DNA from: Spirogloea muscicola
Lineage: Eukaryota > Streptophyta > Zygnematophyceae > Spirogloeales > Spirogloeaceae
NCBI GenBank assembly: GCA_009602725.1
Contig: WELB01000080.1
Span: forward strand, 249,433 to 298,552
Direction: 5' to 3'
DNA length: 49,120 bases
The notes under the pieces are model-generated. The model was not told the origin of the DNA. It was given only the letters and a program-made list of their open reading frames with translations, and searched no databases. Within the stretch, counting starts at the first letter, position 1; the number at the start of each line of letters is the position of its first letter. Made by a program: the position numbers and the translations under genes. This document shows positions 40,023-44,263 of this stretch, one piece after another.

Positions 40023-40046
40023 TGTGCCGAGGGAGGCGCGCGAGCG

Positions 40047-40083
<37 letters not shown>

Positions 40084-40505
40084 TGCTGCCGCCGCCGCCG
40101 CCTCCGCGAGAGTCAGCTGCAGCTTCCTGACAGAGAAACGGCTTGTGGACTGGGGGAGCCATCCGCCACGTCACCCGGGGGAGGCCCGGCTCCGGCAGCG
40201 CCTTTCTGCCCCGTGGGTTGCTACCGTCACACTGTCTCGTCAGCACCTCAGCGCATGGGCTTCGATTCAAGTACCCACTTTTCGCACTGACTTTCGCCTG
40301 AACAGTTTATTATTTTCTCCCTCGTGCTGCCCCTGCCGTGCAGCTAGCTGTGCCCCTGTCGAGGCCCCCGCCGTTAAGTTCGCGCTAGCTAAGCTGCGGC
40401 ACTCCCCAGGGCCCCCCACTCCTGGGCATCATTTCCCCGGCGCCGACGGCAGCTGCGCCGGATGGCGCCGCCTCGCCGCCGCCGCGGCGCCGGCCCGCCG
40501 CGGCC
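40023..40505. promoter_or_regulatory. Divergent promoter with (CCG)n tract
   Basis: The 483 bases between the start codons of the TPR gene (minus) and the CoA synthase gene (plus) must hold both promoters and 5' UTRs. A CCG/CAG-type trinucleotide tract runs about 40040-40115. No TATA box or specific site was recognised. Confidence 0.5.
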
Positions 40506-43500
40506 ATGACGTCGCCGCCCGGTACGGCGCGTCTCCGCCTCGCGGCGCCGCCCTGGACTCCACCGCTCCTCGCCTCGCCCGCCGCCACGCCCGCCCGGGT
40601 GACTCGGCCGAGCCTGGGGCCGGCGAGCTGCCGCCTTCGCTGGTCGCCCGCTGCCTCAGCTAGAGGAGCTGGAGAATCTCTGCTTGAGGAAGTCCGTCGA
40701 CCAGAGCGGCAGCCTTCTGGTGAGCCTGACGTTAGAGCACGAGTGAATTCTGCTCTCCGCAGATTGCTGCACTAGCCTTTGACCAGAAACAGTCAACGTC
40801 TTACTTCTGCCCTGTCACTGTGCTGCTTTGCAGCGGCGGTCGTGGCCATGGCGCACGGCGCAGATTCAATGTACGACCAAAAAACCGTGAAGGAGTACCC
40901 GGGCGTCGTTGTAGGAGGCACATTTGATCACCTGCATGAGGGCCACAAGCTTTTGATGAGAAGGGCCCTCCAGCTGGTTGAGGACGAAGGAGTATTTGTA
41001 GTTGGTATCAGCACTGGCAGACTTCTTAGCAAGAAGAAGCTGAAGGAGGTCTGCGTTGCAAATCCTAGCTTGGCAAGATGTTATCACCTCATTTGTCATC
41101 ATTCATGATCTCCTAAAATCTGCAGGACATTGGGTGCATGAAGCATTGTTCATTTCGGTCATCTTGATTGTTAACCTGGATTGATGGCCATCTGGTGCAG
41201 CTGATAGAACCATACGAATTAAGAAGGAACGCTGTTGAGGAGTATGTCAAGCAACGCACGCAGACTATGGGAAAGAGAGTTGAGCTGGACGTACTTCCCA
41301 TTACCGAAGCTGCTCCGGAAAGGGCAGTCTCTAATGCACAAGTTCAGTGCATCGTTGTCAGCCCGGATACTAGAGCTGGAGCTGAAGCTTTCAACAAGGC
41401 CAGACAGATGAAAGGCATGAGCTCTGTAGACGTGAGTGTACTAAACCATTGACTGCCTCAGCATAGGGTGAACATTTCATTTGATCCTTCCCAGTGCAAA
41501 ATGCATGTCAAGCTCTGACAGCCAATGACTCTAAGCTTGAATCAAGGATGGCCGTGCCAGGAACCCACATTCCACATGATGTGAAAGCAAAGGGGACTTG
41601 AACGACATCTCATCGATTGCGCGAATGTTGATAGGCTGACTTGGCAGGTGGTTGTGATTGATCTAGTCATTGACAAAGAGGGACCTCAGAGTGAGCAGCT
41701 GAGCTCCACTTTACTACGCCAAAGGTTACTTGGCACCTTCTTACTAAGGTAGGGTCAAAGGACTGGCTAAGTATGTATCACGACATTCTTGAAAGGTAGG
41801 TGCATTGCTTTGAGTCGAGCACGCCGACCTAAGGACCTTCTGATCATACTGGGGACAATGACAGTTATACATCTATGTCCTCTAATTTGTGTACTTCAAT
41901 TTGAATCATTGGTGGCCATCGAGAAGCTAGTGTCTCATTCATTTTGTGCGCAGAAGCTCAAGCTGCACAGCTCATGTATTGGTTCAGGCCTGCTGCACAG
42001 CGAAGCATGAGGCTTTCAAGGGATACCCTTAGCACTTGGCCTTACCTCATCGGCTTAACTGGAGGAATAGCCTCGGGAAAGTCAACAGTTAGACAAGAGC
42101 TGCAAGCTTTGGGAGCTGAGGTCCTTGATTGCGATGTACTTGGTCACAAGTCATACCAACAAGGCACACCTACTTACAACGCTCTTGTGCAAGCTTTTGG
42201 TCCTGGTATAATACGAGAAGGTGGGATTTCCAGAGCAAGAAGCTGTCACAGAAACTGTTGAAATGCAACAGAATCAAAAGCAGCAAGACTAAGTGAGATC
42301 CTGTGGCAATCATTTGCAGACAACACGGTAGACCGCCAAGCCTTGGGAGCGATTGTTTTTGAAGATCAGCAACAGATGAGCCGTCTGACTTCTATTGTGT
42401 GGCCTGCAATTGGGCAACTCCTCATGGAGCATTGCGAGGAAGCGGCAGTTAGGGGTTGTCTTCTTTGCATAGCAGAAGCTCCTGTGCTCCTGGAGGCAGG
42501 GTGGCAGCCGCTTGTGGATGAGGTGTGGGTAGTGATTGCCCCAGAAGAGGTGGCACGTGGACGGCTCATGAAGAGGAACGGAATCACTGAGCAAGATGCC
42601 CACAAACGGCTTGATAGTCAGGTGAGCAGAACATTGGGATGTGCTTGTTGTCAGGCTGCCAAAAGTAGGGGTGTACATCATTGTACGCTTTTCTCAGATC
42701 TTGATCCGTATTTGTGATCAAGGTGTGTGCTTGATTCTTGAATGGCATGTACTCATGGCTGCAGATGAGTACAGAGGAGAGAGTTATGGAAGCCGATGTG
42801 GTCATTGACAATAATGAATCATTGGAGGCTACAAGAGAGCAAGTGCAAGGTTGCTCTTACAGGAAAGGCTTACGCCTCTGCAATCTTCCTGGTCGGGAGT
42901 CCAGTCATGGGACCCACTATTCTGCAGGTGGGCAGGCCTGATGCGTAGGTTGAGCGTGAAGAAAGAAGTTGCAGAGGAGTGGTGGCAATTAATTGAGGCC
43001 CATCACAGGCAACATCATCGTCATTATCACACCTTTGCCCACCTTCGAAGCCTCTACAATCTGTACAGCAGGTAGATTAATAATGTAACCTGCACGCTGT
43101 TCAGAGATGACAGTTGTTGATGTCTGAGAGGCCCTGTAACAGTTATCCCTTACAATTCATCTTGTGTCAACTTGCTATAAGTAACCTGCTCCCATCCACG
43201 CTGCAAACTTACACACAAGAAGCCGTCCACCGTCAATGTGCAGATATGCCCATTTTGTGGCAGACCCTTGCGCTTTCCACTTGGCCATATTCTTTCACGA
43301 TGTTGTTTATGAGCCCAGAGCCAGCGTGCAGGGCGTGAATGAGAAGGAGAGCGCTGCTCTTTTCCTCAAATTTGCTCGTGCAGCTGGGTTGACTTCAGAC
43401 TTGGTGAGCTGACATCACATCTCTGTGACACATGTGAGCAATTGATGCACATATCAAGCCGCTGAAGAGGTTCCATCAAGATTGCTACGGGCTGTTGTGG

Positions 43501-44263
43501 CAGTAGTTTAACAGCTCGTGATGGTGCATCCTCGTCTGGTGTCTCCGTTGCTATCACTCTGAGCAGATTTTAGTGGCCAGACGCCACATGACAACATTGT
43601 AAGCAGCGTTTGTGAAGTGCTTTGACCTCTCAGCTCCTTGCTCACAAGTTGGCACATGCGCAACATACTCAGAGATAGTAATGTATAAGAACGTTCTGAC
43701 TTCATGCAAACAGGCGGAGAAGATCAACAAGTACATACTGCAGACTTTCAACCATATGGAAGAAATCCAAGTATCTGAGGACTTGGCGCTCTTCCTTGAT
43801 GTTGATCTAGGTTGGCTGCTGTCATCTTTGTGCACGGAGTCATGCTGCCACTACTCAAAGCACGACCAGCCAGCACTTGGTAGATAAGGCAGGCTCTTCC
43901 TGTCATGTAATGATCCTGCTAGGGGCAGGCAGTGAATTATATTAGGCTTTGAGCAGCCCGAGCGTTGATGCTAATGATTAATTACCTCTTACTGCAGCAA
44001 TTTTGGGAGCAGCCAAGAATGACTATGAAATGTATGCGGCCAATATCAGGAGAGAATACATGCACGTGGATGAGGCCGTCTATAAAGAGAAGAGGGCCAA
44101 CCTATTACAGGAGTGGCTTGCCAGGTCACGCTTGTACAGAACGGATATTATTCACCAGGCCTTTGGTGATCAAGCAAAGATCAATCTGACTTGGGAACTG
44201 GCAGGCCTAAGAGACACATCCTCATCGTTGGACACGTTCCTCAATCTCTTGGAAGGAGTCTAG
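40506..44263 (+). CDS. COASY: CoA synthase: PPAT + dephospho-CoA kinase fused to HD phosphohydrolase
   Basis: Eleven exons: 40506-40719, 40834-41048, 41201-41431, 41648-41748, 41988-42220, 42320-42621, 42765-42842, 42905-43071, 43244-43403, 43714-43810 and 43998-44263 (687 aa). Residues 1-70 are Arg/Ala/Pro/Ser-rich, possibly a targeting peptide. PPAT domain: GGTFDHLHEGHKLLMRRAL (H106, H109), LIEPYELRRNAVEEYV, IVVSPDT, SEQLSSTLLRQRLLG. Dephospho-CoA kinase domain: P-loop GLTGGIASGKST (276-287), VLDCDVLGHKSY, EAPVLLEAGWQPLVDEVWVV, EADVVIDNN. The two catalyse the last steps to coenzyme A. HD domain: HHRHYHTFAHL, then AIFFHDVVYEP (H532, D533), NEKESAALFL, LFLDVDLAILG, ANIRREYMHV. Human COASY has the first two only. 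The exon 7/8 join (62-nt intron) is uncertain: reading straight on gives LLLQERLTPL, like the usual kinase end, but needs a frame change near 42845. Alternative: two overlapping genes, the first stopping at 42941. Confidence 0.82.

Follow-up and report, generated by a model that had tools for sequence, protein, structure and literature searches.

The stretch of the Spirogloea muscicola genome analysed here (49,120 nucleotides, hereafter the window) carries on its plus strand, at positions 40506-44263, a gene whose exon translations and HD alignment give, in this order, a phosphopantetheine adenylyltransferase (PPAT), a dephospho-coenzyme A kinase (DPCK, CoaE) and a complete HD domain. The gene occurs in three genomic copies, one in the window contig (C80) and two in contigs C48 and C49; the three parts retain their catalytic motifs, they are read in a single frame in C48 and C49, and the HD part is under constraint. 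We read the gene as a COASY-type bifunctional coenzyme A (CoA) synthase with a C-terminal HD hydrolase, encoded by three homeologs that are the only CoaE loci detected, in which the tethered HD domain would serve in proofreading or cleaning; the probability of this reading as a whole is put at about 0.5. The tethering of an HD domain to the last two enzymes of CoA synthesis suggests a built-in quality control or clean-up, because the same hydrolase has also been coupled to this step of the pathway in some unrelated bacteria and viruses.

Domain assignment and the kinase-HD junction

The gene model comprises 10 exons and 9 introns, and the GT-AG ends of all nine introns are kept in all three copies. 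In a Pfam scan the spliced C48 protein matches PF01467 (52 bits) and PF01121 (162.7 bits), and it exceeds the cut-offs of NF001985 (106 bits, cut-off 104) and TIGR00152 (164.9 bits, cut-off 65.55). The first two domains are those of a CoA synthase. The PPAT is of the eukaryotic/archaeal type, as indicated by PF01467 and NF001985, and its translation contains HEGH and SSTLLR, which we take to be the HxGH and SSTxxR-type motifs of such enzymes. CoaE, identified by TIGR00152, lies in the same chain behind a COASY-like linker; the C48 linker and kinase C-terminus are homologous to those of mouse COASY (2f6r, E 1.1e-56). Both PPAT and dephospho-CoA kinase activities are predicted for the algal protein.

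The fusion of PPAT, DPCK and HD is well supported in two homeologs by the sequence of exon 7 (42765-43071 in the window, plus strand), which holds the kinase end, the linker and the beginning of the HD domain. The exon measures 314 nt in C48 and C49, against 307 nt in the window. In C48 and C49 an open frame, free of stops and introns, connects the C-terminal helix of the kinase (VRHAWLLLQERL in C48, VQRAWLLLQERL in C49) to the HD start. The C48 helix is matched by the end of mouse COASY, VEKAWNLLQKRL, so that in these two copies one frame covers both the C-terminus of the kinase and the HD domain. The predicted trifunctional products, of 710 (C48) and 709 (C49) residues, consist of a targeting-like N-terminus, the COASY-type PPAT-DPCK and the HD part.

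The preliminary description of this DNA had placed the three domains in one gene, with matching exon phases throughout and the kinase ending near 42941. The order PPAT-CoaE-HD stands, as does the single frame in C48 and C49, but the window copy is frameshifted. A three-way alignment locates at 42848-42849 (plus strand) a gap of 7 bases relative to both homeologs, so that the frame is broken after ~42848, which counts against a trifunctional enzyme at this locus. Because the gap shifts the frame, the kinase frame stops at TGA 42939-42941 to give a PPAT-DPCK frame of 490 residues, and the HD frame of 217 residues has its ATG at 42941; kinase stop and HD start thus overlap in the sequence TGATG (42939-42943, plus strand). 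The phases accordingly fail to match at the kinase-HD junction of the window, and the kinase end near 42941 is a product of the frameshift, C48 and C49 reading on into the HD domain. All exons of the window copy were read, and no further stop or frame break was found apart from those at the junction.

The gap may have arisen recently, may be tolerated or may reflect an error of assembly. The HD part of the window copy might then be made separately, be reached through an 86-base splice (42850-42935), be in the process of being lost, or be split by an assembly error only. The splice emerged from a listing of GT...AG pairs at least 20 bases apart as a candidate intron that could join the two window frames; as the normal route across the junction it was rejected, since in the homeologs this stretch is coding and without indels and the intron is not needed there; it is retained only as a route that the window copy might use. 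An assembly error would make this locus an ordinary third trifunctional copy, compatible with the explanation that we prefer, and it is a possibility to be held tentatively: the window HD frame is open in every exon and its constraint is not lost, although the gap lies outside any homopolymer. A further reading, in which the window copy is transcribed as one message with two cistrons (PPAT-DPCK and HD) and leaves the fusion unused, is improbable. Such an arrangement would fit the TGATG overlap, and the accessible part of PMC11892635 reports nuclear bicistronic loci in green algae, but single frames are present in both homeologs and leaky scanning beyond a 490-codon frame would be unlikely.

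Homeologous copies, selection and exon structure

The genome contains 6 CoaE matches, all at the C80, C48 and C49 loci, and 12 HD exon matches confined to the same three loci, although a missing match is no proof of absence. The three copies look like homeologs, because they are collinear and share 84-89% DNA identity across the gene, introns included, and into the flanks. Divergence among them is 6-7% in exons and 15-18% in introns. Given the three collinear copies, the genome looks like one of three subgenomes or of merged haplotypes; it also contains 68 exon matches to chlorophyll a/b-binding proteins, the mark of a photosynthetic eukaryote.

Ratios of nonsynonymous to synonymous substitution (dN/dS) show that the HD part is under constraint, with values of 0.22 (window-C48), 0.26 (window-C49) and 0.37 (C48-C49). 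PPAT and DPCK lie at 0.20-0.26, with the exception of the window-C48 PPAT comparison (0.76). The window HD still looks constrained, without sign of relaxation, since both of its values fall below that of the C48-C49 pair. On the opposing side, the 22-codon linker, with dN/dS of 0.32-0.80 on few changes, offers no support of its own.

The remaining exons, all on the plus strand, fit the domain assignment. Exon 1 (40506-40719) encodes ~71 N-terminal codons rich in Ala, Pro, Arg and Ser that resemble a targeting peptide and share a frame with the PPAT across the intron at 40720-40833, which is GT-AG in all three copies; the sole indel among the copies of this exon is of 3 bases, in frame, in C49, and its dN/dS is 0.61-0.82. 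Exon 2 (40834-41048) opens the PPAT (PF01467) with GGTFDHLHEGH, which includes HxGH, and exon 3 (41201-41431) continues it between phase-0 splices with conserved GT-AG ends. The PPAT end with its SSTLLR motif and the COASY-type linker are in exon 4 (41648-41748), whose C48 counterpart aligns through the linker with mouse COASY 2f6r. The kinase (PF01121) begins in exon 5 (41988-42220), which holds the P-loop GLTGGIASGKS, and extends through exon 6 (42320-42621). Downstream of exon 7, the HD alignment places the motif FFHDVVYEP in exon 8 (43244-43403), ILQTxNH in exon 9 (43714-43810) and the remainder of DVDLAILG, which spans exons 9 and 10, in exon 10 (43998-44263); the last exon, defined also by homeolog comparison, encodes C-terminal helices and ends with the stop TAG at 44261-44263. 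A run of GCC/GCT-type triplets lies upstream of the gene at 40040-40110.

The HD family and its predicted activity

No credible Pfam or NCBIfam match to the algal HD domain was obtained, and no Pfam or NCBIfam model was found for the bacterial family to which it belongs, whose label we take to be COG4339. Collection scans with the three algal HD domains alone yielded no relatives, which were recovered when seven relatives were added to the query. The algal domain is 27-33% identical to proteins in eight plasmid records and one phage record, and 30-39% identical to those of the best 80 of 571 bacterial relatives, the set on which the counts for the 80 bacterial loci below rest. PF01966 (HD) is matched by 12 of 46 bacterial members at E up to 0.1 (best 1e-4), and a profile search matches the solved HD proteins YedJ (3gw7, E 0.0004) and BH2835 (3dto, E 0.0037).

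Conservation was read from 129 non-algal relatives, 126 of them different. H30 and H34 occur in all 129 rows, D126 in 125 and D128 in 126; H62-D63 is also found in all 129, partly by construction as the HD motif served as the scan search pattern. H30, H34, H62, D63, D126 and D128, the metal ligands of HD enzymes, are all present in all three algal copies. R27, three residues N-terminal to H30, is found in the alga and in 125 of the 129 rows, and an arginine three residues ahead of the first histidine is described as a mark of phosphohydrolases in the available part of PMC8177086. The data support the prediction that the HD part is a metal-dependent hydrolase of the HD superfamily. The earlier proposal of a hydrolase joined to CoA synthesis is supported, because the domain retains the superfamily ligand residues, and a three-domain enzyme is supported in two of the three homeologs.

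Membership of a narrower family is less evident. YqeK is absent from the four matches of the HD profile search and from the fold matches shown, the latter of which excludes nothing; H111, possibly the extra histidine of a second metal site that is a trait of YqeK, is present in 87 of the 129 rows. The predicted structure of a relative (L018, pLDDT 97.3) finds its closest solved folds in the catalytic domains of class I cyclic-nucleotide phosphodiesterases (216 of 217 residues, Z 16.5, rmsd 3.8 Å), although helical folds score middling to high by chance. This alignment, together with the resemblance of YH[NT]xxH to YHNxxH, which we take to be the phosphodiesterase motif, would suit a phosphodiesterase, for example of cyclic nucleotides, acting in regulation rather than repair. 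Such a role is nonetheless very improbable: the best Foldseek E value for the model is 0.02, with none at 0.001, a middling Z score can arise by chance in helical folds, and PDEase_I is absent from the 10 Pfam families to which the 46 members gave matches at E 0.1.

Links between HD and CoaD in bacteria and viruses

The genomic surroundings of the HD family were read at 123 loci, comprising the best 80 bacterial, 36 viral and 7 plasmid or phage loci. With the CoaD of locus L068 as query, a CoaD open reading frame (ORF) was found at 8 of the 123, and at 7 of these CoaD and HD are fused or neighbours. In L068, a Parcubacteria metagenome-assembled genome, HD is fused to CoaD (TIGR01510, 141 bits, cut-off 103.3), the only CoaD match found in that organism; in a model of the fusion most of the CoaD part has pLDDT < 50. 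coaD adjoins the HD gene in three related Verrucomicrobia (L021, L025 and L064; CoaD 71-79% alike) and in a viral contig (L104). In two further contigs, viral according to IMG/VR (L112:4941-6658 and L114:4941-6834; HD 85% alike), the HD gene stands directly before a CoaD-CoaE fusion gene, and in L066 coaD is 3.3 kb from HD. All eight CoaD parts score above the TIGR01510 cut-off; in L112 and L114 the CoaE part likewise passes the cut-off of TIGR00152. Bacterial CoaD near HD was detected only with the L068 query, and algal queries alone would mislead; phmmer searches with the latter found no CoaE or eukaryote-type PPAT near HD genes in the 80 bacterial loci. Patescibacteria L134 and L138-L141 contain ORFs of 371-386 residues in which a part that reads as CoaD precedes what looks like a P-loop domain of CoaE type.

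On a quick HD tree, in which 59 of 126 inner branches have support < 80, the CoaD links amount to 4 changes, or 5 with the alga included. A rough Poisson estimate with assumed gene numbers gives P 1e-7 for the four links among the 80 bacterial loci and 8e-4 when the Verrucomicrobia trio is counted once. For the viral links the corresponding values are 0.013 and, if the related pair counts as a single case, 0.08; both assume, generously, that coaD is present on every contig. The joining of CoaD and HD in some bacteria and viruses strengthens the functional link, though most relatives are without such joins.

Several observations weigh against a dedicated connection to CoA. There is no adjacent coaD in 76 of the 80 bacterial, 33 of the 36 viral and all 7 plasmid or phage loci. 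A scan of 288 Verrucomicrobiota genomes returned, among the matches listed, 15 genomes with HD, only one of which (G385) has coaD alongside; the other 14 loci, cut at ~4.5 kb with ~2 kb on each side, contain no CoaD ORF. HD is matched in 6 of 379 Patescibacteria genomes and fused to CoaD in 1, with no CoaD ORF at the HD loci of the other 5. Of three further viral scans, two returned just the two contigs already in the set; the third gave 8 loci, of which 2 lie on contigs new to the set (L160 and L162) and lack CoaD. The linked coaD of the three Verrucomicrobia is a second paralog beside another coaD and therefore may not be the housekeeping PPAT. The family also has another fusion partner: a Variovorax ORF (L069:4350-5534) encodes a CYTH domain (PF01928) followed by the same HD. 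Finally, the algal HD is not grouped with the coaD-linked domains on the quick tree, but with L014 and L081 (support 85), in whose stretches read there is no CoaD ORF.

These patterns bear on whether the HD part is a general nucleotide sanitiser, such as a dNTP/NTP diphosphatase or Ap4A hydrolase, that is simply tethered to PPAT-DPCK. Its nearest solved sequence relatives, YedJ and BH2835, are presumably close to YpgQ; among the HD ORFs of the 80 bacterial loci the majority have ~190-270 residues and are thus stand-alone, and the CYTH-HD fusion likewise points to a broader use. YpgQ is a dNTP diphosphatase according to the part of PMC8177086 available. Repeated joins to CoaD or CoaD-CoaE would be unexpected for a general enzyme, as the bacterial estimate of 8e-4 indicates, and this role is considered unlikely. 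Equally unlikely is that HD is a phosphatase of 4'-phosphopantetheine, or of its S-oxidised form, that drains or cleans the PPAT substrate in the manner of DUF89 or PANK4. The PPAT step is common to all the linked partners, and with DUF89 the notion of a phosphatase attached to this pathway is already familiar, but the genome holds 4 DUF89-like matches, by which this job may be filled, and the HD part is not itself DUF89 (no PF01937 match of the C48 protein at E up to 1). At C142:236081-241134, exon matches to pantothenate kinase are followed 2.2 kb downstream on the same strand by one of these DUF89-like matches, a weak one, a pair that is possibly a plant-type PanK-DUF89 fusion; if so, a hydrolase may be attached at both ends of the CoA pathway.

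Proposed role in CoA synthesis

The PPAT and dephospho-CoA kinase parts would make CoA, and the tethered HD would hydrolyse a phosphoanhydride bond in incorrect or damaged compounds that these active sites produce, for instance dephospho-CoA analogues formed from dATP or other NTPs; alternatively it may clean the nucleotide substrates. We infer that HD acts on a substrate or product of PPAT or DPCK. The nearest precedent for such a role is YqeK acting for NadD. In the available part of PMC9426524, the adenylyltransferase of the NadD-YqeK protein makes wrong dinucleotides that the HD domain hydrolyses, its diphosphatase activity having been tested. Because of this precedent, proofreading or house-cleaning is favoured first, ahead of a 4'-phosphopantetheine phosphatase or a general nucleotide diphosphatase. 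Proofreading of an adenylylated product or of nucleotides appears at least as likely as the removal of phosphate from a pathway intermediate. A caution from the same source, as far as it is accessible, is that a strain with an inactive YqeK HD mutant had no growth defect (PMC9426524).

A bolder view is that the whole HD family consists of hydrolases devoted to proofreading or repair in CoA synthesis, as the equivalent there of YqeK, and that it came to be joined to PPAT on several occasions (in the alga, Parcubacteria, Verrucomicrobia and viruses) despite the different PPAT families of alga and bacteria, the window copy being a natural split into two overlapping frames. This view is speculative, and we hold it with clearly less confidence than the proposal for the algal enzyme.

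CoA synthesis is universal, and we know of no established proofreading step for its adenylylation. An HD family joined to PPAT in several separate places is therefore a direct, testable candidate for one. If correct, the proposal would lengthen the still short list of enzymes for metabolite repair; it would also assign a role to a bacterial HD family for which a model was found in neither Pfam nor NCBIfam. The three homeologs, two fused and one split, provide a natural comparison. The COASY fusion, the HD superfamily and adenylyltransferase-HD fusions are known already. No published description of a PPAT-DPCK-HD (COASY+HD) or CoaD-HD protein was found in a search that was thin on the subscription literature, and the architecture may already sit in databases; a search on COG4339 likewise returned nothing. 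HD enzymes are mentioned for jumbo phages in the available part of PMC7824862, where none of the CoA terms appears.

Comparison with known systems

The algal protein resembles animal COASY, represented by mouse 2f6r, in which a PPAT of the eukaryotic/archaeal type likewise precedes CoaE and the linker and C-terminal helix are homologous; the comparison covers the linker and the kinase end, and the alga differs in the HD hydrolase that follows the kinase. The NadD-YqeK fusion of mycoplasmas, as described in the available part of PMC9426524, parallels the alga in uniting a nucleotidyltransferase of a cofactor pathway with a hydrolase of the HD superfamily. It belongs, however, to NAD synthesis, whereas the algal HD is without detected YqeK membership and is separated from its nucleotidyltransferase by a kinase. 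The bacterial HD family of ~200 residues shares the domain itself, at 27-39% identity, but is stand-alone in most of the best 80 loci, while the algal HD is fused to COASY. The L068 CoaD-HD fusion and the adjacent HD and coaD genes also join this family to PPAT; in contrast to the alga they employ bacterial CoaD rather than the eukaryote-type PPAT, and on the quick HD tree they are not sister to it. Finally, the plant pantothenate kinase-DUF89 protein and PANK4 similarly attach a phosphohydrolase to a CoA-pathway enzyme, although the hydrolase is presumably of another fold family and is attached at another step than in the algal HD fusion.

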